DNA from: a virus
Virus record (IMG/VR): IMGVR_UViG_3300021142_000066
Coordinates: 1-42,492 of that record
Strand: one strand, 5' to 3'
Length of the DNA: 42,492 nt
The notes under the pieces were generated by a model, which saw nothing but the letters and a program-made list of their open reading frames with translations, was not told the origin of the DNA and did no database searches. Shown here piece by piece: positions 2,515 through 17,666 of the stretch (positions are counted from its first letter, which is position 1; each line of letters opens with the position of its first letter). A program made the translations under genes and the position numbers.

Positions 2515-3672
2515 TTATGCTTTGTCTTTATCCCTAAAGAAATGTGAAAATACTAAATATCTTATAGCGTCCATTAAGTGATTATGTCTGTCAACTGGCA
2601 CATTTTCAGTATCGCCAGTTTGTTTGTTGACAGTCCATATATAAGTTTCGCGTTCTTTTGCAATGTTACTTCCACAAAAAAAGACATTGTAGTCGCGGTT
2701 TATCATTGTTATGCCAGCATTTATACTTCCTTGACCTTTTCTTGCTGGTATTGCTGTAATTCCCAAGTCCCGCAATTGCCTACCCATTTCTGGAACGTGT
2801 TCACAATATGCTGGAGCAGTGTCAACATATCCATTTACTTTGAGAATTTGAGCAATAGTTGTTGCAGATTGGTCAACTTCGTAAAATAACTCTCGTATAA
2901 ATAAGTTGCGTCCAATCCTGTACCCTTTAACTATAGCTGTTGGGTCAACAGTAAAGCCAAAGTCCAAACCATACTGGCAGTCATTATCATCGTCAAAGTC
3001 TTCTCGCTGTATTTGAGTCCAGTTAGGAAATATTATACCCTTTACATTTCCTGTCAATCCTCGTGCGTAAACCTTGAACAAGTCTCCGGTATAAGCTTCA
3101 ATCATTTTATGCTGCCAATCCTTGAGAAATGGGTTATGCCTATGGTCACTAATTAGTAGTTTAGTTCCAACCGCAGGTATTAATTTCTCGTGCGCCCAAA
3201 ACCTCGCCGATGGATTATAATCTATTATTGTTTGCTGAGCCCTTGATTGCAACTGGAAAAACCGCATGTAATCAAAGCTGTTAGCCTCGTTTACAAATAG
3301 ATACTTTCTTTTTGGCCCTCTCGCATCAACTTCCGTTTCAAAAGTTTTAAACTCAATTGTATGTCCAGACTTGAATATAAACAGATGTTTGCTCATATGG
3401 TATTGAGCAATACAGTCTTTAAACTCAGGATAGACGTACGTCTCAAAATCTCGCAAAGCTCCACCATGCAAATGTGGAAAACTATGAGATGTAATTGTTG
3501 TTACTTTTGGTACGTCAGGAGTGCCAGTCCCATTATCCTCATGTGCCAATACTGCCAAAGCCATTAGTATATTAACTGTTTTACCACTATTCTGCCCACC
3601 CTGATGAACGATTGTTCGAGTACCATACCTCATTTCTCGCAACGTCTCAGTAAAAATTGGCGAGGCCTGCAT
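2515..3672 (-). CDS. Terminase large subunit
   Basis: A 385-residue packaging motor: N-terminal ATPase and C-terminal RNase H-like nuclease. Walker A is GQNSGKT at residues 26-32 and Walker B is YLFVNEA at 124-130 with catalytic Glu129. The nuclease domain starts at LDFGFTVDPTAIV with Asp237, and a late acidic residue lies in HLMDAIRYLVF near the C terminus. Length is short but normal for this group. Its small subunit is not adjacent: it lies 2.2 kb upstream at 5870-6424, separated by the accessory interval with the Tad2-like gene. Confidence 0.93.
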   Translation of the reverse strand: MQASPIFTETLREMRYGTRTIVHQGGQNSGKTVNILMALAVLAHEDNGTGTPDVPKVTTITSHSFPHLHGGALRDFETYVYPEFKDCIAQYHMSKHLFIFKSGHTIEFKTFETEVDARGPKRKYLFVNEANSFDYMRFFQLQSRAQQTIIDYNPSARFWAHEKLIPAVGTKLLISDHRHNPFLKDWQHKMIEAYTGDLFKVYARGLTGNVKGIIFPNWTQIQREDFDDDNDCQYGLDFGFTVDPTAIVKGYRIGRNLFIRELFYEVDQSATTIAQILKVNGYVDTAPAYCEHVPEMGRQLRDLGITAIPARKGQGSINAGITMINRDYNVFFCGSNIAKERETYIWTVNKQTGDTENVPVDRHNHLMDAIRYLVFSHFFRDKDKA

Positions 3673-3710: not shown

Positions 3711-3724
3711 TACAAGGTACGACA
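3711..3724. repeat. 14-bp sequence TACAAGGTACGACA, inverted copy at 5715-5728
   Basis: An exact 14-mer that recurs in the opposite orientation at 5715-5728. The two copies bracket the Tad2-like gene, the noncoding 4.07-4.5 kb stretch, the parS site and the coiled-coil gene. Read on the minus strand the copy here contains TACCTTGT, which resembles the Bacteroidota -7 box TAnnTTTG with one T missing, 38 bases upstream of the large terminase start. It may therefore be a promoter element, a boundary of an inserted segment, or both. Confidence 0.5.
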
Positions 3725-3771
3725 AAATACCGAAATCCGTACACCGGAATTGTTAAATATTTGTTAAAGTG

Positions 3772-4065
3772 TTAATCAAGCGAGTTCCAATCTTCTGCCA
3801 AAATATCGGCTTGGGAAGCTAACCACCCCGGTTGCATTTCTCCCTGTGCCGTGTACATTGTAATAGAAGAATGAAATACAACATTTTCTCCTTTTTTATA
3901 AAGGAAATCTTTAACAGATTGAGGTAAACTTGCAAATTTTGGTATAAAATCTTTGTTTACAGTATTTCCAACTGTTTTGTACACAAACATTCCTTTTCCA
4001 TTCCACCCATTTCGAGCAACTCTGTTACCGGCGTTCATTGCTTCAATAGCTTGTCCAAAATTCAT
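3772..4065 (-). CDS. tad2: Tad2-like (DUF2829) anti-Thoeris protein
   Basis: A 97-residue protein matching the DUF2829 pattern: MNFGQAIEAM at the start, then VARNGWNGKGMFVY, a middle segment, and the closing WLASQADILAEDW. Proteins of this family include Tad2, which forms tetramers that bind and sequester the cyclic ADP-ribose signal of Thoeris defence; some relatives also bind CBASS cyclic nucleotides. Family membership is read from the sequence; the anti-defence role is inferred from the family. It lies alone between the large terminase and a noncoding stretch, a typical accessory-gene position in a packaging operon. Confidence 0.78.
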   Translation of the reverse strand: MNFGQAIEAMNAGNRVARNGWNGKGMFVYKTVGNTVNKDFIPKFASLPQSVKDFLYKKGENVVFHSSITMYTAQGEMQPGWLASQADILAEDWNSLD

Positions 4066-4505
4066 AATAGTTAATTTTATTTGTTAAAAATACCAAACCT
4101 CCAACGCAATGTAAATTTCCCGCTCTTCCACAAAAAAGAACGGTACACTTGGTGGCCTTGTAGCAAATAAAGCGCACCTGGTATTGGTTGCGCTTGATAA
4201 GCAGCTGGGGTCCGCACTTGGTAAGACACTGCCAGCGCCGACTAATCGGGGTAACGGTAAGTCTTTTATTTGGAAATCTGATGTGCAAGTTTAGGGGTTC
4301 CGAAGAGGCGCGACTTCGGTTGAAAATTTTTTCAACCGAGCGCACGAGTTAAAACGTTGTTAAAAATTGCTTGGTAACACCTCGTATCCGTTTTTGATGC
4401 TCCAAAAATCGTGCCAGCTTTTTGCAATGGAGATAAATATTTTTTTCATGTTTTGTGATTTTGTAACCAGCCCCCATATACGAGGGCTGGTAGAATGATT
4501 AAAAA
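4066..4505. other. Gene-free stretch with several predicted hairpins
   Basis: About 440 bases with no convincing gene. The only long frame (4043-4345 minus) overlaps the Tad2-like start, needs a non-ATG start and has no protein-like composition. The DNA is rich in short inverted repeats: 4170-4176 with 4189-4195 (AAGCGCA), 4300-4305 with 4314-4319 (CCGAAG around AGGCGCGA), and 4317-4338 (CGGTTGAAAA facing TTTTCAACCG). The hairpins follow one another closely, so a structured untranslated RNA is possible, but no known family was recognised. Confidence 0.4.
4466..4491. terminator. Hairpin with 8-bp GC-rich stem, possible terminator
   Basis: ACCAGCCC at 4466-4473 pairs with GGGCTGGT at 4484-4491 around a 10-base loop. 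It lies between the end of the coiled-coil gene plus parS and the noncoding stretch. The flanks are A/T-rich, but there is no clean U tract on either strand, so termination is only possible. It could end the transcript of the 4524-5273 gene. Confidence 0.4.
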
Positions 4506-4521
4506 TGTTTCACGTGGAACA
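4506..4521. promoter_or_regulatory. parS centromere-like site (16-bp exact match)
   Basis: On the minus strand the sequence is TGTTCCACGTGAAACA, which fits the chromosomal parS consensus TGTTnCACGTGAAACA with no mismatch. parS is bound by ParB/Spo0J and is conserved across most bacterial phyla. The phage has no recognisable parA or parB, so the site would be read by the host protein. It sits two bases beyond the stop of the 4524-5273 gene. An alternative is that the near-palindrome is an operator for a phage regulator, since half-site relatives occur in other intergenic regions. Confidence 0.75.
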
Positions 4522-4523
4522 GG

Positions 4524-5273
4524 TTATTTTGCAACCCCAATGCTCCGGCGGTATGCAATTAATGTATTGCCGACGGTTCCGTCGTTATAACCTTGCGCAA
4601 TCAATTCCTTGCGCAAACGTTTATCGGTATCGGAATCCGTGCCACCGTTCATGCCTGCAATGTAATAATCCATGATGGCTTTTGTTTTGTCGCCCTTGGG
4701 TGCCGATACTGTATCGGTTGCGGTTGCGGTTGCGGTTGCGGTTGCTGTTGAGGCAATCTTTGGACGCAATGCCAATGCACCCAATAACGCATTGTCAACC
4801 GGCACACATGCCTCCTCGTACGCATGGTACACGGCATCGTATGCCTCACGGGCGGCAAACGGTTTAACCATTATTCCGTCAATTTCAACCTCGGCAACGG
4901 CGGCATAAACGGCTTCGGCGGCAACCAATGCACGTACGGACAAAACCAGTTTTTCTCGTAATGCGATACGTTCGGAACGCTGTGCTTTTGCGGCAATTTC
5001 GGCCTCACGGCGTGCAATTTCGTTACGTTCGGCGGCAATATCCTTTTCAATTTTTTGCATTTCACCAACGGCTTCGAAAAATTCCTTGCTGCCGGGTTTT
5101 AATGTGCCGCCCGCAATTTTTGCTTGTACATCCAACGAGGCCTGTTGCAATTGTTCCAATTTGGTAATTGGAGCTGGTGTTGGCGTTTCAACGGGTTCTG
5201 GTGTTGGCGTTTCAACGGGTGCAATGTTTTTTGCTGTTTCGTGTGCCTTGTTGGCGTTGTGTTTGTTTGACAT
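4524..5273 (-). CDS. Coiled-coil protein with Pro/Thr-rich head, unknown function
   Basis: A 249-residue protein of no recognised family. Residues 1-40 are low-complexity Pro-Thr-Glu repeats. About 40-130 is a charged helical, probably coiled-coil segment (QKIEKDIAAERNEIARREAE). A short Ala-Thr repeat around 178-190 comes from a hexanucleotide repeat. The last 55 residues (TKAIMDYYIAGMNGG to the end) look like a small helical domain that could bind DNA. The gene is GC-richer than its neighbours, with frequent GCC, GGC and CGG codons, suggesting recent acquisition. It stands alone, with a noncoding stretch on each side and parS just past its stop. Confidence 0.75.
   Translation of the reverse strand: MSNKHNANKAHETAKNIAPVETPTPEPVETPTPAPITKLEQLQQASLDVQAKIAGGTLKPGSKEFFEAVGEMQKIEKDIAAERNEIARREAEIAAKAQRSERIALREKLVLSVRALVAAEAVYAAVAEVEIDGIMVKPFAAREAYDAVYHAYEEACVPVDNALLGALALRPKIASTATATATATATDTVSAPKGDKTKAIMDYYIAGMNGGTDSDTDKRLRKELIAQGYNDGTVGNTLIAYRRSIGVAK
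4715..4750. repeat. Hexanucleotide microsatellite CGGTTG (five perfect copies plus one variant)
   Basis: Five perfect tandem copies of CGGTTG at 4715-4744 and a sixth with one change. They lie in the coding region of the 4524-5273 gene and encode an Ala-Thr repeat. The unit is a multiple of three, so copy-number slippage changes linker length without breaking the frame. Confidence 0.9.
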
Positions 5274-5869
5274 AACATTTAAATTTCCGGTATTGGTTTA
5301 TGCTGTCCGGTGCAGCTGTGTGGCGATATTGCCGTTTATTGTGATACAAATGTACGAGGTGTTTTTACACATTCCAAATTTATTTTGCCATTTCCAACAT
5401 ATTTATTTTTGCTATATGTTTGTGTCCATCACGAACGTATAATATTGCCACATGCACAAAAACGCAATACGGGACGTTTTACGGCATGCAACATTGCTTG
5501 TGTGGTATAATACTAAAAATCAATTTGGGGCGAATTTTAACTTTTGTGAAACAACATATATGTTCCACATGTAATATGTCAACACGAGCGCAATTTGGCA
5601 CATTCCACATTCCACATGCCATTTTAATTATTTGCCCGTGTGCGCTCGCGATATACGAGGTATATTCCACATTACCAAATGAGTTTTATCATTTAACAAA
5701 TTATTAACAAATTGTGTCGTACCTTGTATATGCCCCAGCGCCACACAAGCGCAAACGTACGTTTCTCATCGTACGAACAACAACCTACGACGACAGCCGT
5801 ACGTCATTCAAACCTACCAAGCCGTAAAACCTAAGGATATATAAACCTAAATTGCTCTGTGGCATTTTC
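5274..5869. other. Gene-free stretch of about 600 bases
   Basis: No frame here looks like a protein on either strand. Visible elements are a CCGTAAAACGT motif (plus-strand ACGTTTTACGGCA at 5474-5486) of the family also found at 9.6, 21.8 and 29.3 kb, another GCCGTAAAAC at 5821, the inverted 14-mer at 5715-5728, and repeated CATTCCACAT-type words near 5600-5670. The promoter of the 4524-5273 gene should be within it. The mixture of GC-rich words and A/T tracts differs from the coding DNA around it. Confidence 0.55.
5715..5728. repeat. Inverted copy of the 14-mer at 3711-3724
   Basis: TGTCGTACCTTGTA, the exact reverse complement of 3711-3724. It lies in the gene-free stretch just downstream of the small terminase gene and marks the other side of the accessory interval that contains the Tad2-like gene and parS. 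Confidence 0.5.
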
Positions 5870-6424
5870 CTACGCAGTCTTTACAACTTGCCCATTTTCT
5901 AAATTCAAGCTTTCCAAAATTTCACTTTCAGAACGCGATAATTTAGTAAGGCCTTCCACAACAGAAATAGTTATATTAGATGGCCTTGTATCTGGTGTGT
6001 CCATGCCTAATACCTTCTGCGTAAATGTTGGATTAATTATCCCTACTGAAGCATACTCAACATTCTGCACCCAAACAACATAAAGAATAGTTGAAACAAC
6101 ATTGTACATCTCGCTATCAACCTTCGAATTGTTGCGCATATCTTTTAAAAAGTCCTCATGAATACCACAGAATAAGCATAAAGCTTTAATAAGGTACGGC
6201 CTACAGTATTCTTCCTCTACCTTCTTTCCTGCCATCTGTCCAGTGTTAATGGTACGCATAGAAGTAATAGGATTGTCGTCGCACCACTGGAAGTACTCGC
6301 ATGCCCTAATCCACAGTTCAGCAGCACTGGATACTACTGCTCGGTCAAATCTCACATGACGCCACAGTTGCCTGTTATATCCCATTACCTTACTTATTTC
6401 AGGATGCACTTGCTGGTTTGCCAT
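5870..6424 (-). CDS. Terminase small subunit (DNA-packaging protein gp3 type)
   Basis: A 184-residue protein resembling the gp3-type DNA-packaging proteins that recognise the packaging start and load the large terminase. The pattern is an N-terminal helical segment with ELWIRACEYFQWCDDNP, a Cys/Phe-rich middle (ALCLFCGIHEDFL), and a C-terminal stretch with ASVGIINPTFTQKVLG, which corresponds to the AVGLFNPNIIAR-like segment of the family. It overlaps the VRR-NUC gene upstream by 26 bases. It is separated from the large terminase by the accessory interval. Confidence 0.85.
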   Translation of the reverse strand: MANQQVHPEISKVMGYNRQLWRHVRFDRAVVSSAAELWIRACEYFQWCDDNPITSMRTINTGQMAGKKVEEEYCRPYLIKALCLFCGIHEDFLKDMRNNSKVDSEMYNVVSTILYVVWVQNVEYASVGIINPTFTQKVLGMDTPDTRPSNITISVVEGLTKLSRSESEILESLNLENGQVVKTA

Positions 6425-8854: not shown

Positions 8855-9107
8855 TTAACAAATTTAAAATGTAATAGTATTGAGTTTCTGTTAATTCTAT
8901 TACTTTTTCAGGAGCAATCAAAATGAATTTTTGTTCACTCTCTTTAATTCCAGTATCAATAAAGTATTTTTCTTTTTGCGGAAGAGCGTTAATCCTTTTT
9001 GCATCGGACTCAGAAAACATAAATAATATTTCGTGAGCTAAGCATCTTGTTGATTTTCCTGTTGCCTTTTCCATACACCCAGGAATTAAGCATAGTTCAT
9101 TATTCAT
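8835..9107 (-). CDS. Small zinc-knuckle plus ETQY-motif protein, copy A
   Basis: A 90-residue protein combining an N-terminal C-x4-C-x10-C-x2-H knuckle (CLIPGC to CLAH, residues 5-24) with the ALPQKEKYF and ELTETQYYYILNLL blocks at 41-85. It therefore links the zinc knuckles of the 278-residue protein with the ETQY family, as if all four genes came from one duplicated ancestor. Its ATG overlaps the stop of the upstream gene by four bases. Function unknown. Confidence 0.75.
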   Translation of the reverse strand: MNNELCLIPGCMEKATGKSTRCLAHEILFMFSESDAKRINALPQKEKYFIDTGIKESEQKFILIAPEKVIELTETQYYYILNLLNENNIL

Positions 9108-9412
9108 TTAACCTCCTTCATGTTTTTAGTTCCTAAACAAAGTGGTTCAATTCTAATTGGTGGGCAGTGCAGTCCGTTAATATACTGGTTTAAAACGTGT
9201 TTTCCTCTAAAATAAGAGTTTTCACGTTTACAACCACATAACTTGCATTCATAGTGTTTAGTTAACCATCTGCCTTCACGAGTTTCATCTCCTTTTACCC
9301 AAACATGCTTAATTGGCGCATCTGTTGAAAGTTGTAAATCGCATGTATGTCTTCTTGAACTATCTCCGGTTTCGTCGACTTCGTCGCATGCTTTACAGTT
9401 ATTCTTTCTCAT
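9104..9412 (-). CDS. Small Cys-rich zinc-ribbon-like protein
   Basis: A 102-residue protein with CKACDE near the N terminus, a His-x-Cys, then HYECKLCGCKRENSYF around residue 54, which looks like the second half of a zinc ribbon. Many phages carry such small proteins in early operons. It overlaps both neighbours by a few bases, so it is part of a coupled operon. Function unknown. Confidence 0.7.
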   Translation of the reverse strand: MRKNNCKACDEVDETGDSSRRHTCDLQLSTDAPIKHVWVKGDETREGRWLTKHYECKLCGCKRENSYFRGKHVLNQYINGLHCPPIRIEPLCLGTKNMKEVK

Positions 9413-9611
9413 ATGTAACTGATATTAAAATATAGTTAATAATCTCAACAGAGTAAACGAGGTACGCTTTCTCTATTTCTTTCTGAAGCTTTAAAATGTC
9501 GCTGTAAATAATCTTGTGTTTAAAACTTCGATAGTAATTAGACATTTTTATAGTTCCTGACATTGTTTCCAAATAAGAATAAGAAACAAAATAATTATAT
9601 GTTTTACGCAT
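9399..9611 (-). CDS. Small hypothetical protein
   Basis: A 70-residue protein beginning MRKTYNYFVSYSY with alternating hydrophobic and polar residues, then a helical middle (SDILKLQKEIEKAY) and a final strand-like segment (VEIINYILISVTYE). This strand-helix-strand pattern is common in small uncharacterised early phage proteins. It is the first gene after the 9.63-9.66 kb operator-like inverted repeat, so its promoter and control site probably lie there. Confidence 0.65.
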   Translation of the reverse strand: MRKTYNYFVSYSYLETMSGTIKMSNYYRSFKHKIIYSDILKLQKEIEKAYLVYSVEIINYILISVTYEKE

Positions 9612-9632
9612 GATTGAAACGTTTTAAAATGC

Positions 9633-9664
9633 CCGTGAAACGTTGTTTTGCGCCCGTTTCACGG
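9633..9664. promoter_or_regulatory. Inverted repeat CCGTGAAACG / CGTTTCACGG, candidate operator
   Basis: Two perfect 10-bp arms (9633-9642 and 9655-9664) separated by 12 bases, in the gap between the XRE regulator gene and the 9399-9611 gene. The arm contains the half-parS word CGTGAAAC and belongs to the CCGTGRAAC motif family found in other intergenic gaps. The adjacent XRE regulator is the obvious candidate binder; host ParB is the alternative. Confidence 0.55.
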
Positions 9665-9735
9665 CATGTATTAATGTTTGTGTATGTTTGTATTGTTTTG
9701 GGTTTGATGGCCGTAAAGCGTCCCGTATTACGTTT

Positions 9736-9948
9736 TTAATAACCGCCCAAAAGGTCATTAGGAGTACAATTAAGAGCCTTGCATATTTTAGAAAAAGTTT
9801 TAATATTTGTTGTTTGAACAGAGTTTTCAATAGTTGAAATATTTGCTCTGTTACAGCCTATTAATGTTGCAAGGTCTTTTTGAGTCATACCTAATGATGT
9901 TCTTCTGTTTTTAAGATTTTTAGCAAAAAACTTTTCATTGTAATTCAT
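9736..9948 (-). CDS. XRE-family (Cro/CI-type) helix-turn-helix regulator
   Basis: A 70-residue single-domain DNA-binding protein. The five-helix Cro/CI fold is readable: LKNRRTSLGMTQKDLATLIG (helices 1-2), CNRANISTIEN (recognition helix), TTNIKTFSKICKALNCTPNDLL (helices 4-5). No dimerisation or protease domain, so it is a small Cro-like repressor rather than a CI with autoproteolysis. It is placed between the decayed helicase paralogue and the operator-like repeat at 9633-9664, which it may bind. Confidence 0.9.
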   Translation of the reverse strand: MNYNEKFFAKNLKNRRTSLGMTQKDLATLIGCNRANISTIENSVQTTNIKTFSKICKALNCTPNDLLGGY

Positions 9949-9949
9949 A

Positions 9950-10516
9950 CTATTTTAGTTTATATTTGTTATATAATTCTCCCCACAACTCTTTTTTGTC
10001 AATACTATTATACAGTTCAAAGTTAATCGACTTAACTTTTAATGTATAAATATGAGCAGCCCAGTTAAAGCTGTAAAAAATGGTTGTTCCACAAAGATTA
10101 ATTAGGCGCTTTTCAGGCTCATGCTCTGTATATCCGTCAAACACTTTTTCTTTTATCCTGAACTGGTCTCCATAAGCTATTTTTTTGTACTTATTCCAGT
10201 CACAAAGTCCAGAATTACACCAAATAAAATCCTCGTACAACTCTTCTTTTTGTTGAAGACCTTGAATTGTTGTGCCAAATGGACTTAGCTTCCAAAGAAA
10301 CTCTTCTGTTTCGTCTGGTTTTTGTCCTATCAGTACCAAAATCCTATGATTTGGCTGATAAAACAGGCTTTTAACGCAAAGTGATAGCCATTCTTCTAAT
10401 TGAGTATCTGCTGCAATGTTATTTTCGCAGTTAATTGACTCTTTTAGAGCCTTTATACAGCCTTTTCCTACTGGAAACGATGCCATTTGAGCACGTAGTT
10501 CCTCGTGTTTTCCCAT
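9950..10516 (-). CDS. P-loop-less paralogue of the phage VirE-type helicase domain
   Basis: A 188-residue protein that follows the ATPase domain of the 13636-15825 primase-helicase. The clearest match is INFELYNSIDKKELWGELY (164-182) against INQELYNTIDKKEMMMEAY. INLCGTTIFYSF (139-150) matches IAVLCGTSNTYQW, and EEWLSL (41-46) matches PEWVKY. At the Walker A position the helicase has LLGKRHGSGKT while this protein has LIGQKPDETEE, and the Walker B LLLDDE is replaced by FIWCNSG. ATP binding should be lost. It may act as a regulatory or structural partner of the helicase, or be a decaying duplicate; the frame is intact. Confidence 0.65.
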   Translation of the reverse strand: MGKHEELRAQMASFPVGKGCIKALKESINCENNIAADTQLEEWLSLCVKSLFYQPNHRILVLIGQKPDETEEFLWKLSPFGTTIQGLQQKEELYEDFIWCNSGLCDWNKYKKIAYGDQFRIKEKVFDGYTEHEPEKRLINLCGTTIFYSFNWAAHIYTLKVKSINFELYNSIDKKELWGELYNKYKLK

Positions 10517-10586
10517 AACTTGTTATTAGTATTAGTATTAATGCACTTATTAGTGCCGTTATTGCAAGTTGTAATATGCAAATCAT
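10431..10586 (-). CDS. Possible 51-residue membrane protein, overlapping
   Basis: Starts at an ATGA overlap with the stop of the 10583-10738 gene, so translational coupling is likely if it is real. Residues 4-22 (ILQLAITALISALILILI) form a membrane segment, followed by a basic tail. It overlaps the 5' end of the next gene by 86 bases in another frame, which lowers confidence. Confidence 0.35.
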   Translation of the reverse strand: MICILQLAITALISALILILITSYGKTRGTTCSNGIVSSRKRLYKGSKRVN

Positions 10587-10738
10587 AACCTATCAATTTT
10601 TTTCTGTTTATACTCGTTATACTTTTGTTTGTCTGTTTTTCTGCTACTTATCATCAGGTCAAACGAAACAACGCAAAACATACCAATAACAAACCCAAGT
10701 ACAAAAGTCCAAACTAAAAGTTCAATTCCTATTTCCAT
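10583..10738 (-). CDS. Small single-span membrane protein (51 residues)
   Basis: A short gene filling the gap between 10516 and 10745. One membrane segment (LLVWTFVLGFVIGMFCVVSF, residues 7-26) is followed by a charged Lys-rich tail (SSRKTDKQKYNEYKQKK), the inside-positive pattern of a small inner-membrane protein. ATG start seven bases after the stop of the upstream gene. Function unknown; early phage membrane peptides often modify the host envelope or exclude other phages. Confidence 0.65.
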   Translation of the reverse strand: MEIGIELLVWTFVLGFVIGMFCVVSFDLMISSRKTDKQKYNEYKQKKIDRL

Positions 10739-10744
10739 AAAATA

Positions 10745-11017
10745 TTAGTTTAAAATGTAATCAAGAACTTTCTTTTTTGCGGATAAATCCCTCATTTGCC
10801 TCGCAGTATCAGCAGTTCCATCGTTAAACTTTGCTGCATCTGAGCCAACACGAGGTTTGATTTTTGATATTTGCAGTTCAATTGCTTCAAGTTGTTCGCG
10901 AAGATAAAACTCATTATACGATTTAACTAAAAGCAAAGCTAATTGATAGAATTTTAATTGAGGCTTTAAGTGCCTGTAAAATTCTATATCAGATTGTATT
11001 TGTTGCTGAGATTTCAT
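10745..11017 (-). CDS. Small helical hypothetical protein
   Basis: A 90-residue, almost entirely helical protein: QQQIQSDIEFYRHLKPQLKF, then a LREQLEAIELQISKIKPR segment and a charged C-terminal helix. Coiled-coil assembly is likely. No family recognised. Its start overlaps the end of the upstream gene by 29 bases. Confidence 0.65.
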   Translation of the reverse strand: MKSQQQIQSDIEFYRHLKPQLKFYQLALLLVKSYNEFYLREQLEAIELQISKIKPRVGSDAAKFNDGTADTARQMRDLSAKKKVLDYILN

Positions 11018-11321
11018 TTTTAAGTTCTTTTATTAGTTCAATAATAAGTATTCTAACATGAACACTTGAAGACCTCCATCTATCTTTTTTACCTCCAATT
11101 TCATTAAAGTTTATAAAAAACTTTTGAAGTATGTAATCTGGTTCGCATTGAGCTATAAACTCTTTAAAGTTTTTTCCAAAAGCTCTCCAGGAGTACCCGT
11201 ATAATCCCCAGTCTGATTGAAGGAATAAATCTCCTTTGTTATTAAAGCAGAATATACCGTAACTTGAAATTGGATGGTCAATGTGGTATGTTTCTGCTTT
11301 ATCTTTAGTAATTTGTACCAT
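10989..11321 (-). CDS. Hypothetical early phage protein
   Basis: With the ATG at 11321 (MVQITKDKAETYHIDHP) the protein has 110 residues. A longer frame from a TTG at 11357 would run through the tRNA-like element at 11335-11379 and is not chosen. The segment GDLFLQSDWGLYGYSWRAFG, then KEFIAQCEPDYILQKF, is a recurrent pattern in small early phage proteins of unknown role. No motif of known function. Confidence 0.7.
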   Translation of the reverse strand: MVQITKDKAETYHIDHPISSYGIFCFNNKGDLFLQSDWGLYGYSWRAFGKNFKEFIAQCEPDYILQKFFINFNEIGGKKDRWRSSSVHVRILIIELIKELKNEISATNTI

Positions 11322-11334
11322 AAAATAAATTTTG

Positions 11335-11379
11335 TAGCTCATTTGGACTTGAACCAAATGACTGCCTACCAGTGAGCTA
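11335..11379 (-). ncRNA. tRNA-like minihelix 1 (acceptor stem plus T arm, no anticodon arm)
   Basis: On the minus strand: TAGCTCA, a 14-base linker (CTGGTAGGCAGTCA), T-stem TTTGG, seven-base T-loop TTCAAGT, CCAAA, then TGAGCTA pairing with the first element over 7 bp. The geometry is that of the top half of a tRNA, with a canonical TTCRA loop. There is no anticodon arm and no CCA end. It fills the gap between two early genes, 13 bases before the next start. Two more elements of the same design are at 18006-18048 and 20462-20506. Confidence 0.6.
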
Positions 11380-11574
11380 ATTTAACAAATATTCATCAAA
11401 AGAAAACATAACGGTTACAACGCAGTTAAGTTTGCATATGTACTTATACCATCCTGTTGAGTTTCTAAATTTTAGAGCGTTATTATAAGACTCAATAGAG
11501 CATTCAAATGAAGTTAAGTAAACGTACATATCCAGTATTTCACTGTACATATACTTTCTAACATTTACCTTCAT
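11377..11574 (-). CDS. Small hypothetical protein
   Basis: The ATG at 11574 (MKVNVRKYMYSEILDMYVY) gives 65 residues and overlaps the stop of the upstream gene by 17 bases; the longer frame to 11679 would overlap by 120 and is rejected. Rich in Tyr, Cys and hydrophobic residues, with no known motif. Its TAG stop lies in the first strand of tRNA-like element 1. Confidence 0.6.
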   Translation of the reverse strand: MKVNVRKYMYSEILDMYVYLTSFECSIESYNNALKFRNSTGWYKYICKLNCVVTVMFSFDEYLLN

Positions 11575-12148
11575 TTTTATACCACCTCCATCCGGTAAAT
11601 TTGCCATCTTTCCAAAATCCCCAGTTTCTACGGCGTTTAAATGTGATAAATAAAGTCCAGCAAGGTATTGGAGCTTCATCCGCTCCGCAAAGGTGTATTG
11701 AGTGCTTATGTTCAGCTTTGCGTTTAATTATATCTCCTTCGCTAAAAATCTCTGCCACGGTTTCGGTCAACTCAAAATAACAACCTTTAAGTATTAAGCT
11801 TATACTGTCCCAAGGATTGTCATGAAGGCAATCGGTATCAGACTTTAAAAACTTGTGAACCTTTATTCCTAACCAAGGAGTATTAAAAATTGTATAACGA
11901 ACTAAAAGTCCATTTCCAATTACTTTTCGAGAAGGGCCTGACCAATCACTTTCTTTTTTGTGGATAGAATTTTTTGGAGCAACAGCAAGAAAATCATTTC
12001 CAATTAACTTAAGTTCAAAGTCTTGGCCTTCTTTATAAACTTTCATATCCTCTAAATCTAATGATTTGTGGACAAAGAACGAAATCTGAGAACCTGTTAC
12101 ATAAGTACTTGATAACAGGTTTAGCTTTTTGTAGTATTTGTAGAACAT
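11558..12148 (-). CDS. Cupin-like phage protein
   Basis: A protein of up to 196 residues with the signature of a cupin-like family common in phages: KVHKFLKSDTDCLHDNPWDS, ISLILKGCYFE, then IIKRKAEHKHSIHL, and the closing CWTLFITFKRRRNWGFW. In related proteins the first block reads LHDHPWDF, with histidines that could bind metal; here the second His is Asn. Function in phages is unknown. The start is uncertain: the ATG at 12148 overlaps the upstream gene by 28 bases, and an internal ATG (MKVYKEGQDF) is also possible. Confidence 0.7.
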   Translation of the reverse strand: MFYKYYKKLNLLSSTYVTGSQISFFVHKSLDLEDMKVYKEGQDFELKLIGNDFLAVAPKNSIHKKESDWSGPSRKVIGNGLLVRYTIFNTPWLGIKVHKFLKSDTDCLHDNPWDSISLILKGCYFELTETVAEIFSEGDIIKRKAEHKHSIHLCGADEAPIPCWTLFITFKRRRNWGFWKDGKFTGWRWYKNEGKC

Positions 12149-12303
12149 GGCTCAGCGTCAGTTAAATGTATCAGATGCGCATTAAGGAAACCTGCAATAT
12201 ATCCTCTTTGAGCTTCTGTGTTTTTTGGGAATAGTTTTTTAGCTTGAATTTTTGCAGCGTTAGTTACAAGCAATTCGTAATCTTCAAGGCTTATTGGCTT
12301 CAT
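12121..12303 (-). CDS. Small hypothetical protein
   Basis: A 60-residue protein (MKPISLEDYELLVTNAAKI, then AQRGYIAGFLNAHL). It resembles the small helical proteins often found beside replication genes in phages. Its ATG shares a base with the stop of the 12303-12482 gene (TAATG), so it is translationally coupled to it. Function unknown. Confidence 0.65.
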   Translation of the reverse strand: MKPISLEDYELLVTNAAKIQAKKLFPKNTEAQRGYIAGFLNAHLIHLTDAEPCSTNTTKS

Positions 12304-12482
12304 TACTGTTTATTTTGAGACAATAAAGACAAGGCTCTTGAATAGGTTGTATCAGTAGCCTTTACCTGATATCCTGGGTTTTGTCTGCTTATATCATGAA
12401 ATAGTTCGCGACCTTCTTCGTTTAGTCTTTTAGCTATAATCATAGAAAGCATAACCCAATCTGAAAATTTTCTTGTGTCCAT
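12303..12482 (-). CDS. Stand-alone PriCT-like mini-protein (59 residues)
   Basis: A short gene between the DnaQ-like exonuclease and the 60-residue protein. Its sequence, FSDWVMLSMIIAKRLNEEG followed by RELFHDISRQNPGYQ, lines up with residues 213-260 of the phage's own primase-helicase (YQEWLKIGFAFVHQFGENG, then RSYFHRISELDNKY), the PriCT-type linker between primase and helicase. A free copy of this linker could compete with or bridge the primase. Frame intact, ATG start, coupled to the next gene through TAATG. Confidence 0.7.
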   Translation of the reverse strand: MDTRKFSDWVMLSMIIAKRLNEEGRELFHDISRQNPGYQVKATDTTYSRALSLLSQNKQ

Positions 12483-12484
12483 AG

Positions 12485-13075
12485 TTATTGTAGTTTAATT
12501 ATTCCAAGTTTAACCATCTCAAAAAAGCAATCTTTGCAAGCGATTACATCATTCATTGCATCGTGCGCCCCTTCAAAACCACGACCAAATAACTTTTGAT
12601 GTACCTCTTCAAGTTTTGGCCATTTATATTTACCGTACGAACCAGGTAATTTGCAGTAATCTGTACCAGAGTCTTTTGTGCAAATCTTTTTAATTTCTGA
12701 ATGAGGGCCAGTTATTTGAGCGCGATAAAGTTCGCTCATTATAATTGGCATGTCGTAAGACATATTATGAGCAACAAGATAATCGCATTCTTTTTTGTAA
12801 ATTAAAAAGTCAACCAATAGCTTTTTAATAGGCTCTCCATACAACTCATTATCTTTTGTGGAAAAGCCATTTTTAACCCAAAATTCTCCATCAGGAATAA
12901 CCCATCCGTCAGGTTTTACTAACTGGCAACTACGTGCAATTTCTTCTCCTGTTTCGTCAGTCATTAACCAAGCTAACTGAATTATTCTTGGCCAATTGTC
13001 AACATCTTTATAAGATGCTTTATAGTTTTTTGGAAGGCCTGTAGTTTCTGTGTCAAAAAATAAAAAGTAAGGCAT
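12485..13075 (-). CDS. DnaQ-like 3'-5' exonuclease (DEDDh)
   Basis: A 196-residue exonuclease with all DEDDh motifs: FFDTETTG (Asp8, Glu10), VAHNMSYD (Asp108), and GAHDAMNDV (His171, Asp176). This family supplies proofreading or single-strand trimming. No phage DNA polymerase gene was recognised here, so it may act with the host polymerase or in recombination. It follows the 94-residue gene by one base and belongs to the replication operon. Confidence 0.92.
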   Translation of the reverse strand: MPYFLFFDTETTGLPKNYKASYKDVDNWPRIIQLAWLMTDETGEEIARSCQLVKPDGWVIPDGEFWVKNGFSTKDNELYGEPIKKLLVDFLIYKKECDYLVAHNMSYDMPIIMSELYRAQITGPHSEIKKICTKDSGTDYCKLPGSYGKYKWPKLEEVHQKLFGRGFEGAHDAMNDVIACKDCFFEMVKLGIIKLQ

Positions 13076-13076
13076 T

Positions 13077-13361
13077 TTATTGGTATTTAGTTATTTGTTC
13101 AATCTCGGAGATTTTAAGTATTTTAGTTAATGCTTGCTTTTGGTTAAGCATTCTTGCATTATTAAACATTACTTCGCGCCCAGAAGAAACGAAACGATAC
13201 ATTCCTTTACTTGCAAGTTCTGCAAAATCTGGCAATATTGCAAACTTTCCGTACATTGGCTGTAGCATTTTTAAATATACCCTGCAATATGACTGCGAAG
13301 TTACGCAATCAGTAACCTGTAGTTTTATTTCTTCTGGACGAGTAAGGAGCTTTTGTGTCAT
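13077..13361 (-). CDS. Hypothetical protein in the replication operon
   Basis: A 94-residue protein with no recognised motif: MTQKLLTRPEEIKLQVTD, a middle segment with GKFAILPDFAELASKG, and a helical end. Its stop is one base before the exonuclease start region and its own start shares a base with the upstream stop, so it is tightly coupled to both neighbours. Confidence 0.7.
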   Translation of the reverse strand: MTQKLLTRPEEIKLQVTDCVTSQSYCRVYLKMLQPMYGKFAILPDFAELASKGMYRFVSSGREVMFNNARMLNQKQALTKILKISEIEQITKYQ

Positions 13362-13546
13362 TATTTAGTAATTTTAATTTCGTAATTAATAGTTTCTTTA
13401 GCAAGCCAAACGTGGTTTTTAATCTTATCGAGTACTAAATTAGTATCTTTTGCATGTTTATTAGATAAAATAGCTTTTATTTTTTTAATATCTTGGCTTA
13501 TTTTATCAAGATGATGCAAGCATTCTTCCCTTTCTTTAATAGTCAT
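13361..13546 (-). CDS. Small coiled-coil protein
   Basis: The ATG at 13546 (MTIKEREECLHHLDKISQD) gives 61 residues, mostly one charged helix with a hydrophobic heptad pattern. A longer frame to 13585 exists but begins within the promoter-like sequence upstream and is not chosen. First gene after the promoter-like repeat at 13573-13640. Function unknown. Confidence 0.65.
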   Translation of the reverse strand: MTIKEREECLHHLDKISQDIKKIKAILSNKHAKDTNLVLDKIKNHVWLAKETINYEIKITK

Positions 13547-13572
13547 AGTTTTGTGATTTATTGTTTGAGGGC

Positions 13573-13608
13573 ACAAGTTATGCAAAATTGTGTTAAATAA
13601 ACGTTAAA
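13573..13608 (-). promoter_or_regulatory. Candidate early promoter
   Basis: On the minus strand TTTAACGTTTATTTAACA is followed by CAATTTTGCA and then TAACTTGT, which resembles the Bacteroidota -7 box TAnnTTTG. The same arrangement, with a better -7 box, precedes the 21494-21757 gene. It would drive the genes from 13546 leftwards. Confidence 0.5.
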
Positions 13609-13622
13609 CGGATTAAAAACAT

Positions 13623-13640
13623 TGTTAAATAAACGTTAAA
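13623..13640. repeat. 18-bp repeat TGTTAAATAAACGTTAAA (direct copy of 13591-13608)
   Basis: An exact second copy, 32 bases from the first, reaching into the last codons of the primase gene. A third copy with one difference is at 21798-21815. The spacing of about three helical turns suggests a regulator contact or a doubled -33 region. Confidence 0.7.
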
Positions 13641-15825
13641 ATGGCCCTGCTGGCTGGTTAAAACTTCTACCAATCTTAAGAACAATCCACTTCTTTGGAC
13701 ACGATACAGAACTAACACGTATAGACCTTTGGGTAAATCCAAGCCTTGCCATCTCTCTTCCAATTTGCACTAAGCTAAGTTTTTGTCTTGTTAGTATTTC
13801 TAACTCAACAACAATATCCGTAGATGTCATAGCCTCGTAGTCTAAACAGCTTTTTTCTGGAACTTCATAAAAGCGTTGAATAAGCTCTTTTTCTTTGTTT
13901 GGCATTTCAAATTCCTCCTCGTTTGTACGTAAATAATCAATATCTTTTCCTAATATTCTCCAGTCGTAACCATTGCGATAAAGCTGGTATGCTTCCATCA
14001 TCATTTCTTTTTTATCTATGGTATTATAAAGTTCTTGGTTAATTTCTTTAACCATAACATTTATAAAACGCCTATTACCAGTTGTATCCCTCATCCACTG
14101 GTATGTATTGCTCGTTCCACAAAGAACAGCGATACGCATTATTTTCTCATTGAATTCTCCATATGGCCTACGAATATAAAAGTAATCTGTTGAAGTTATA
14201 TTCTTTATTTTTGTTGCTTCTGCTTTATTTTTACCGTCAAGTTCATCATCCAATAAAAGTATCTTTTCTGTCATTACTATTTCATCGTCTTTTCCTTTAT
14301 CTAATCCAGAACGAGCAAAATAATGCTCTGCCAAATAATCAGGAAGTAAATTGGTAAGCCAATAAGTTTTACCTGAACCATGACGCTTGCCAAGTAATGC
14401 AAGTAATAAAGGTGAGTGCAATCCGTGCATAGCTGCTACTATACTAACGTACCATTTGCGAAAAAAGTACTTAACCCATTCGGGTTCATCTGTTATTAGT
14501 GTAGATGCCATCAAGTCAATAGTAGGAGATTTGAATTGACTTTGCTCTTTTGCGTATTTGGTAACTTTTACTCCGTCACTATTAAGAAACTCAAAAAACG
14601 GGTTGTATTTTTCAATAAAGTCTGACTTTAGCAACCGCATCATTAGTTGATACTCCAACCTGTTAATCTTCTTTTTTGCGGATATAAAAATTGAGTTAAG
14701 GTCATTTGGACTAAGTCTTTCGTATCCTTGTTCCAAAAAACCTGTAACAGAATTCATGCGAAGTTTGTAATTAGCAGAAATAAATGCTTCGAGCTGCTCT
14801 AAAAGACCATCATCATCATCATCGTAAAGGTCTTCGGTTTTAAATAATCTGTTTACATACTCGTCAGCTCCCTTTATATCTTCGTACTTTTCAAGGTTTT
14901 GTATTATTTGTTCTGGTTTAAGCCCTGCCTTTTTGTTGTTTATTACAACCCTGCGAATAGTTTTAGTTCGCTCACTAAAAATGGAAACGTTATTTATTTT
15001 GCAGAAATAATAGAATGTAGATATCCTTACAACGTTTCCGCTTTTATGTTTTAAGCAGTAATCGTATTGCTTATTACACTTTTTATAATTATACTTGTTA
15101 TCAAGTTCTGATATACGATGAAAATAACTCCTTCCATTTTCTCCAAACTGGTGTACAAATGCAAATCCAATCTTAAGCCATTCCTGATAAGACGAACATA
15201 TTATTGCGCGTTTAGAAACCAATCCGTTAAATACTTGGTCAAAGTCTCCTGGCTCATAAACAAAGTTTGTTATTTCTTTTAGAGTAACTTCTTTCTCGGT
15301 TTTATTAAACGTAGAGCAGTTTATGTTCCAGTAAAGATTTGGGTCGTAAGAAACAAAGTACGGCTTTGAAACAGCAATGCTATCAGGCTCTACTTCCAAA
15401 TCATACTTTTCCCAGAAATAAGTTTGCGCTCCAAGAAAAGTTTCACGATGTTTTGCAGGGTCAATTTTTATTACTATCCTAATCCCATCACCTCCTGCGC
15501 TCATCCACAAAGCAAAAATGTAATCGTCTTCTGATAGTTTTCTAATTGTTTCTTGAACATCTATTTCATCGCAGTCTAAAGCCATATACCCACTATGAAC
15601 AAGCAAAGACTCGTCATTCCTATACGAAAATTCACCTGACATAGAACACGTTGGAAGGAGTTCGACTTTTAAATTGTCTCGTTTTTTAGAGTCTTTTTCA
15701 AGCCGTATTTTTGTAACTATATCTTCCCATTTTCCGAGTTGAATACATCTTAAGTAATCGGACATTTCTAATATCTCTGGCGAAGCAGGCTTTGATATGC
15801 GGCTAAATAATGAAACCTTGGGCAT
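13636..15825 (-). CDS. AEP-like primase fused to VirE-type superfamily 3 helicase
   Basis: A 729-residue replication protein. Residues 1-170 resemble the BT4734/VirE N-terminal primase domain: YMALDCDEID (80-89) carries the metal-binding Asp84/Asp86 pattern and SAGGDGIRIVIKID (109-122) follows. A PriCT-like helical linker is at 213-260. The C-terminal ATPase has Walker A GKRHGSGKT (479-487), Walker B ILLLDDE (522-528), a CGTSN sensor (569-573) and TTGNRRF with the arginine finger (581-587). It should open and prime the phage origin, probably the region at 7.1-7.7 kb. Two small proteins in the same operon copy parts of it (12303-12482 and 9950-10516). Confidence 0.92.
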   Translation of the reverse strand: MPKVSLFSRISKPASPEILEMSDYLRCIQLGKWEDIVTKIRLEKDSKKRDNLKVELLPTCSMSGEFSYRNDESLLVHSGYMALDCDEIDVQETIRKLSEDDYIFALWMSAGGDGIRIVIKIDPAKHRETFLGAQTYFWEKYDLEVEPDSIAVSKPYFVSYDPNLYWNINCSTFNKTEKEVTLKEITNFVYEPGDFDQVFNGLVSKRAIICSSYQEWLKIGFAFVHQFGENGRSYFHRISELDNKYNYKKCNKQYDYCLKHKSGNVVRISTFYYFCKINNVSIFSERTKTIRRVVINNKKAGLKPEQIIQNLEKYEDIKGADEYVNRLFKTEDLYDDDDDGLLEQLEAFISANYKLRMNSVTGFLEQGYERLSPNDLNSIFISAKKKINRLEYQLMMRLLKSDFIEKYNPFFEFLNSDGVKVTKYAKEQSQFKSPTIDLMASTLITDEPEWVKYFFRKWYVSIVAAMHGLHSPLLLALLGKRHGSGKTYWLTNLLPDYLAEHYFARSGLDKGKDDEIVMTEKILLLDDELDGKNKAEATKIKNITSTDYFYIRRPYGEFNEKIMRIAVLCGTSNTYQWMRDTTGNRRFINVMVKEINQELYNTIDKKEMMMEAYQLYRNGYDWRILGKDIDYLRTNEEEFEMPNKEKELIQRFYEVPEKSCLDYEAMTSTDIVVELEILTRQKLSLVQIGREMARLGFTQRSIRVSSVSCPKKWIVLKIGRSFNQPAGPF

Positions 15826-15845: not shown

Positions 15846-17666
15846 CTAAAAATTTTCTTCTACTGGTTCTGTTTCTGTACGAGCAATTTCTTTTTTAGAA
15901 TAATTAGTTATTTTACCTGTTAGTTGTTGTATAAAGTTTTCGTAGCATGGTTTGCACTGGTTTTTATCTATGTTGTGCGTATCAAGATGTTTTTCGCATA
16001 CAGGATAATCGCAATCGTCGCAAACTATATCAGTTTCTGCTCCGCATACATGGCAGTTCCAATTTTCTATACTACTGTATCTTTCTTTTTGTTTTTTAAC
16101 TTGTGTATCGTAATTGTATCTTGCCTTTTTAATATGGAAAGATGATTTTTTAGCATCGCCAATTTTAATACCAGCGTCTTTGTTTTTTTCGTACCACCAC
16201 TGGTCAATTAAGTCCATGTACATATCAAACCCTTTTACCAATGTGTACTCTGATGGATTTTTATGCTTTTCAAATAGTCCTGCTACGATTTTTTCTGCCA
16301 TATTATCCACAACAAAATAATCGTACTTGTGTCCATACTCCTTTGTAAGTCCAGCAACATCAATTCCTTTTGTTATAGTAAGCATTTCACCCAACTGGGC
16401 TTCATCCCTCAGTTTCTTTCTGTCAAATACATATCCGCATATTTCTCCATCTTCATTTACCAAATTACAAACAGTTGAAGAAGCGTGTACTAAACCTTCG
16501 CAAGCCGGACACGACTTAACTGGAGCAACTCCTTCGCCTGGCTCATCAGGATGCCAAAAAATATGCTCCCAGTCTCTATCATCATGCCATTCTCCAAAGT
16601 CAACACAATGCGCACCCATGTCAATAATCTCAAAACTGTTTTTAGTTTTGAGCTCATAAGGATATTCATGCTGGCGCTTAGCAATTATATCTTTTGTAAT
16701 TATCCTTCCACCCCTTCCGCCTGTTTGTATTAACTTTGTTAACGAAAGCGTTGTAAAGTTTTGAATTATCCTTTCAACAGTAATCTCGTCAAAGCCTGCT
16801 ACTGTAATCATTACATTTTGCAAAATAGCGTTCTCTGTTATCTTAAACCATTCTAAAACATCTTCCTGTTGCTCTTCTGTCATTTTGCTATCTAAAACAC
16901 GAGATGGTAATCCACAAAGAATAAATAGCTGGTTTACATCGTTGTTATGAGCAATAGACGTATTAAATATAATAGTCTTTTTTCCATTGCAAAACCTGTA
17001 GTAAACTTCTAATGTATTGCGAACATACTTTTGCTCACGATACGCATCAGATAACTGTGTTTCATTGTAGTCTCCAGTCATCTTGTTTACTTCTAACTTT
17101 GCTGCATCAACACGAACCTTAGGAGAACGTGTAATATTTTGAGAAAGAAACCCCATAGCAATCAACTGCTTTATTTGAGGCCCAACTACTATATCATTAT
17201 AGTAGTTTTTAATTGGGTCTTTTTTGCTTGAGCTTATTGGTGTTGCTGATACACCAAGTATAAAAGCATTTGGAAAAAACATTGAAACTTTCTTAAAACT
17301 ACCATCGTGGCACTCATCGCAAATAACAAGTCCTGGCTCGTCCATTAAATCAAGCCTATTAATGCCTGATTGTATCATTGCTATATAAACCCTTGAACGC
17401 TGATACTTTTTTGTTTTATCTGTTATTAAACAAGGTTTTGTTTCTGAAATAGCTTCAATTGCCTCGGCCGCCTGCTGCATTAACTTTTTTCGGTGAACAA
17501 AAATTAAAACAGGTTGTTTATACTCGGTTAAAAACCTGCGAACTATAATAGCAAACATCCAAGTTTTACCACTTCCTGTTGCAGATTGAAGTAAAACTTT
17601 TTTGTTTTGTACAAGAGACTTGATTGTTTTTTCGATTGTGACTTCTTGGTACTGGCGAGTAGACAT
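15846..17666 (-). CDS. Superfamily 2 DNA helicase with C-terminal zinc motifs
   Basis: A 606-residue DEAD/DEAH-type helicase of the Res/UvsW-like kind. Walker A SATGSGKT (28-35), motif II ICDECH (115-120), motif III GVSATP (138-143) and motif VI QTGGRGGR (314-321) are all present. Two Cys-rich segments follow: CPACEGLV with CGYVF near 380-410 and a C-terminal CHVCG, CDDC, CEKH cluster near 540-575. It probably supports replication, fork remodelling or recombination next to the primase-helicase. Confidence 0.92.
   Translation of the reverse strand: MSTRQYQEVTIEKTIKSLVQNKKVLLQSATGSGKTWMFAIIVRRFLTEYKQPVLIFVHRKKLMQQAAEAIEAISETKPCLITDKTKKYQRSRVYIAMIQSGINRLDLMDEPGLVICDECHDGSFKKVSMFFPNAFILGVSATPISSSKKDPIKNYYNDIVVGPQIKQLIAMGFLSQNITRSPKVRVDAAKLEVNKMTGDYNETQLSDAYREQKYVRNTLEVYYRFCNGKKTIIFNTSIAHNNDVNQLFILCGLPSRVLDSKMTEEQQEDVLEWFKITENAILQNVMITVAGFDEITVERIIQNFTTLSLTKLIQTGGRGGRIITKDIIAKRQHEYPYELKTKNSFEIIDMGAHCVDFGEWHDDRDWEHIFWHPDEPGEGVAPVKSCPACEGLVHASSTVCNLVNEDGEICGYVFDRKKLRDEAQLGEMLTITKGIDVAGLTKEYGHKYDYFVVDNMAEKIVAGLFEKHKNPSEYTLVKGFDMYMDLIDQWWYEKNKDAGIKIGDAKKSSFHIKKARYNYDTQVKKQKERYSSIENWNCHVCGAETDIVCDDCDYPVCEKHLDTHNIDKNQCKPCYENFIQQLTGKITNYSKKEIARTETEPVEENF

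Follow-up and report, generated by a model that had tools for sequence, protein, structure and literature searches.

A parS-type site between the terminase genes of a phage without recognisable partition genes

Why should a phage that encodes no recognisable partition proteins carry a perfect copy of a bacterial chromosomal parS? The site in question lies at positions 4506-4521 of a 42,492-nt phage genome (the whole stretch of DNA that was analysed, called the window below). It reads TGTTTCACGTGGAACA on the plus strand and TGTTCCACGTGAAACA on the minus strand and has no mismatch to the chromosomal parS consensus TGTTNCACGTGNAACA, in agreement with the first-pass annotation of this DNA, which had described it as a consensus-perfect parS. 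It is the sole match to the consensus in the genome, the runner-up sites in the window (at 5561 and 35756) having three mismatches each. The same annotation had considered such a 16-mer to be unexpected by chance in 42 kb; the computed expectation for the 14 fixed parS positions, given the base composition of the phage (36.5% GC), is indeed 0.00016 matches per genome. The site is embedded in the arrangement small terminase, ORF249, parS, a 26-bp inverted repeat, a Tad2-like gene, large terminase, portal, protease and capsid, and the clear genes of the phage are all on the minus strand. The features next to the site are as follows.

4506-4521, no strand: parS-type site TGTTTCACGTGGAACA, intergenic, 2 bp beyond the ORF249 stop codon and ~834 bp upstream of the start codon of terL
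2515-3672, minus strand: large terminase subunit (terL; PHROGs phrog_2/5653)
3772-4065, minus strand: Tad2-like domain protein (Thoeris anti-defence 2-like; PF11195, E=1e-22)
4466-4491, no strand: inverted repeat next to parS, 13-nt arms, 85% complementary; a possible transcript end of ORF249
4524-5273, minus strand: ORF249, a coiled-coil protein whose three C-terminal helices are predicted at low confidence; no Pfam/PHROG family
5870-6424, minus strand: small terminase subunit (GP3_package; phrog_606, PF16677)

The window starts and finishes with an identical 121-bp repeat, and a second contig, IMGVR_UViG_3300025779_000020, bridges both of its ends, matches the window at 100% identity along the 15 kb they share and carries the same parS site. 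The genome is therefore complete as a circular map of ~42.4 kb, and an assembly error can be dismissed as the source of the site. Searches of this genome for the ParB N-domain (PF02195), for ParA-type ATPases (PF13614, E<=1) and for tyrosine recombinases (PF00589) gave no match, and scanning the larger ORFs with PHROGs and Pfam likewise revealed no ParB, ParA or integrase. Neither protein of a ParABS system was thus recognised, as had been noted from the sequence at the outset. The only repressor-like gene seen in the phage encodes a small HTH protein (9736-9948).

The likely hosts belong to the Bacteroidota. The terminase of the phage has relatives in Bacteroides phages (34%) and its portal protein in Polaribacter phages (28%), and further terminase relatives were found in genomes of Mucilaginibacter, Chitinophaga, Hymenobacter, Pedobacter and Pelobium. 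The closest one (57%) is encoded, together with an ORF249 homologue, by a 25-kb contig (L345, SSFP01000025.1) within a Polynucleobacter MAG, where it is probably a misbinned phage contig. Consensus parS sites were present in 16 of the 18 genomes with terminase relatives, at 1-4 sites each, whereas the pattern read backwards gave one match in each of two of these 18 genomes. Four of the 18 (Chitinophaga sic0106, Hymenobacter fodinae, Hymenobacter HSC-4F20 and Pelobium) contain the identical 16-mer, the commonest form in the clade being TGTTCCACGTGGAACA and not the variant of the phage. All nine host-clade genomes tested encode ParB. The comparison with Bacteroidota chromosomes that had been proposed in the first-pass annotation was therefore favourable: the phage site is identical to parS sites of its likely, ParB-encoding host clade, a clade rather than an exact host being what these relationships indicate.

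The comparison with related phages, proposed at the same time, went the other way. The site was absent from the loci of the 160 nearest terminase relatives (0/80 viral and 0/80 bacterial-genome loci) and from 36 whole viral records of terminase relatives with one mismatch allowed, and absence from related phages had been named beforehand as a finding that would refute the idea. Conservation at the same place, which supports but does not define a parS, was thus not found among the nearest relatives. A nucleotide search of phage records with the parS region returned only an 88-bp, chance-like match. Within this lineage, parS is not conserved and, since the nearest relatives lack it, was probably gained recently here, in a variable slot. 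Unrelated phage families do carry it.

The extent of this occurrence was determined by scanning 2.9 million viral contigs (IMG/VR) for the 16-mer, the count for the 16-mer itself being a lower bound. At least 120 stretches matched exactly, compared to one match for the pattern read backwards and four for a permutation with the same letters and the CACGTG core kept, so that chance accounts for no more than a few per cent of the exact viral matches. The 120 listed loci contained 21 extra consensus sites beyond the retrieval site (10 when the contig L045 is left out), compared to an average of 0.003 for 300 permuted palindromes in the same loci, and no exact parS was found in the 1.04 Mb of 120 control loci drawn by a random 14-mer. 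The site was intergenic in 59/120 listed loci and the random 14-mer in 25/120; roughly one in two viral parS sites among the matches listed falls within predicted coding sequence. A ParB domain was detected in one of 49 parS-bearing records among the matches listed, which as fragments make the absence of ParB weak in any one record but not the rate across records. Integrases were no commoner in the parS records among the matches listed (4/49) than in the controls (8/49), which weakens a role tied to integrating prophages.

Several of these contigs carry more than one site. An opposite-facing pair, 37 bp apart, occurs in L069 (8524-8576), and an adjacent pair plus a third site in L008 (6637-6894). 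The contig L045 (IMGVR_UViG_3300037518_000322), 117 kb long and classed as viral, contains a 5-kb cluster of 12 consensus parS sites (8906-13878), and no PHROG or phage family was found in the eight ORFs tested. It may be the origin region of a chromosome or a large element resembling a plasmid. It is possibly host DNA, and other parS-bearing viral contigs may in some cases be host DNA as well.

The viral sites tend to occur in the vicinity of packaging genes. A large-terminase gene was found in 55/120 listed parS loci and in 16/120 controls; when only control loci were used to seed the terminase models, the numbers were 53 and 22. Merging of loci that share DNA left 86 parS groups among the matches listed and 103 control groups, and terL lay within 4 kb of the site in 32/86 and 12/103 of them, respectively (p=5e-5); at a distance of up to 1 kb, the numbers were 14 and 4 (p=0.005). 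Compared to random positions within the same loci, which are too short for this purpose, the closeness to terL showed no clear excess. The nearness of viral parS sites to terL is therefore suggestive, as an excess over control loci in which the effect of intergenic space is still included. The present phage matches the trend, its site being intergenic and between the terminase genes. Outside one family, parS was upstream of terL in 24 cases and downstream in 7 among the matches listed, but a directional rule was discarded, as the distribution of intergenic DNA accounts for it.

The family in question comprises 27 of the listed parS loci and is related to the Pelagibacter phages HTVC023P and HTVC027P, phage DSL-LC04 and Caulobacter phage RW. 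The 16-mer is identical across its members, whereas the flanks differ and the position varies. When members of the family were collected only by their terminase (80 loci, 0.67 Mb), five exact sites and one with a single mismatch were recovered, compared to none for 300 permuted palindromes in the same loci. All six lie upstream of terL (p=0.001 when all bases are considered, 0.23 when only intergenic bases are). The cultured Pelagibacter phage HTVC027P (L337, record 16412-16427) has the one-mismatch form CGTTTCACGTGAAACA, in the intergenic region between terS and terL.

As the 16-mer occurs far above chance in other phages, phages probably borrow the host chromosome-segregation protein. For the present phage, four observations support this idea: the exact sequence, the absence of par genes, the same 16-mer in chromosomes of the ParB-encoding host clade, and its strong over-representation in ParB-less viral DNA. 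Judged from these sequence comparisons, 4506-4521 is very probably a genuine parS, and it is probable that this chromosomal-type site, unaccompanied by partition genes, would load host Bacteroidota ParB on the phage DNA. Borrowing of host ParB, as the first-pass annotation had suggested, is thus the best-supported reading, tempered by the nearest relatives being devoid of the site and by its occurrence as a single copy in this phage.

ParB is known to load at parS, to close in a CTP-dependent manner and to slide along DNA (PMC8367383). In the infected cell, host ParB-CTP would accordingly be expected to close on the phage parS, and the closed ParB would slide across the adjoining terminase region. 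It might then tie phage DNA, either the genome or copies replicated from it, to the host partition apparatus, i.e. ParA on the nucleoid and SMC, and this tethering could position the phage DNA or distribute it among daughter cells when the infection is slow or of the carrier type. Given a genuine parS, the case for such positioning or segregation appears evenly balanced, and tying the phage DNA to the host partition machinery would be the likeliest use. A pure titration of ParB seems hardly likely.

The main alternative is that the same interaction would serve regulation rather than positioning. ParB loaded at the site would slide into the terminase and late region and silence these packaging genes until the replicated copies titrate, and so dilute, the available ParB. 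The concentration of viral parS sites near terL is consistent with such a timer, as is the repression of promoters adjoining parS by the ParB of Pseudomonas aeruginosa (PMC5521831). However, the bias towards positions upstream of terL follows the location of intergenic DNA, and a sigma-70/terminator scan of the phage yielded no more matches than in shuffled sequences and hence no promoter evidence here. We regard silencing as a minority possibility if the site is a genuine parS, and as rather unlikely when all explanations are considered together.

The 16-mer might also resemble parS by chance and have been noticed since the motif is famous. Many other known motifs could have caught the eye, millions of viral contigs must yield some matches, and the site is not kept in the nearest relatives of this phage. 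However, parS was matched at least 120 times across the whole viral collection and two rearranged palindromes of the same letters one and four times, and the site is intergenic and identical to a parS of the host clade itself, which makes coincidence improbable.

The site might also be a passive relic, bound by ParB but unselected: a piece captured, together with an accessory gene, from the host chromosome or some other element. The Tad2-like gene (3772-4065) occupies a variable slot beside parS; between ORF249 and terL, the relatives carry other ORFs or little, and no parS. The region is moreover enclosed by distant inverted repeats:

3711-3768, no strand: left arm of two distant inverted repeats (TACAAGGTACGACAAAAT; TTGTTAAATATTTGTTAAA), pairing with 5692-5728
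5692-5728, no strand: right arm of the distant inverted repeats, pairing with 3711-3768

These repeats (18 nt at 94% and 19 nt at 89% complementary) enclose the Tad2-like gene, parS and ORF249, and are perhaps promoter or regulator sites rather than the ends of an element. Their repeat unit TTAACA-N5-TTAACA recurs in the relative L136, at ~1441 and ~1612. Against a relic, no host-like gene lies beside parS, and the recurrence of the site in unrelated ParB-less phages, together with its repetition within contigs, favours selection in general, albeit not for this particular copy. A captured and unselected piece is thus quite improbable.

ORF249 had been described in the first-pass annotation as a gene of foreign composition, which could not be upheld. 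A homologue is found at the same place in L136 (29% identity, E 5e-9), further likely homologues occur in L345, L137 and L138, and in these relatives the gene lies between the small and large terminase genes, without parS. ORF249 is therefore a gene of the lineage and not demonstrably foreign, and the idea of a foreign moron made up of ORF249 and parS was ruled out. No match to ORF249 was obtained in phage records, nor with exact peptide patterns in genome contigs, and an HMM built for it was dropped because it strayed into tape-measure proteins. The AlphaFold model is a coiled coil with three C-terminal helices at pLDDT ~50 or below, and given this low confidence, DNA binding by the C terminus is only possible. 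The notion that the palindrome is an operator of a phage regulator, such as ORF249 with its stop codon 2 bp away and its possible helix-turn-helix C terminus (a low-confidence prediction), is very improbable, since the homologues in L136, L345, L137 and L138 have no palindrome in their loci, parS lies after the gene and not before it, and the exact identity to a host parS would then be coincidental.

More generally, we tentatively suggest that exact host parS sites, one or a few per phage, occur in many unrelated ParB-less tailed phages with a preference for the packaging module, and that these phages exploit host ParB-CTP clamps in a lytic or carrier cycle, either for placing genomes and concatemers or for timing late genes; such a strategy would be widespread and unrecognised. 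Phages known to segregate as plasmids supply their own partition genes, whereas a site-only strategy could allow even small phages to hook their DNA to host ParB, ParA and SMC for 16 bp. If this is true, host ParB would be a host factor of infection across many phyla, a parS in a phage genome would mark a positioned or carrier state, and the question would arise why parS clusters near terminase genes. A parS survey was reportedly carried out by Livny and colleagues in 2007 (cited in PMC10286716). Our literature search, with subscription papers mostly beyond reach, found no description of host parS sites in ParB-less phages, and priority is not claimed.

Among known systems, the closest in sequence is the chromosomal parS of the ParABS systems of Hymenobacter, Pelobium and Chitinophaga, which has the same 16-mer and the consensus TGTTNCACGTGNAACA; the phage copy differs in that it adjoins terminase genes and is not on a parAB-bearing chromosome. 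XerCD-dependent filamentous phages use dif-like sites, and phages carry Chi sites. Here too, a chromosome-like cis site lets a host protein act on phage DNA, but the host protein is another one and the output presumably differs. A centromere-like site on the phage genome is likewise found in P1, N15 and the RedRock-type mycobacteriophages, the partition site of RedRock consisting of repeated 8-bp motifs (PMC7157519). These phages, however, encode ParA/ParB together with their own sites, whereas the present phage has a host-type site and no par genes. ParB folds in phages have been surveyed (PMC12704722). The phages of the Lacachita group, which have a ParB-like gene only and no integrase (PMC10286716), resemble the present phage in their partial partition equipment without an integrase, but carry the ParB-like gene, whereas here it is the site alone that is present.
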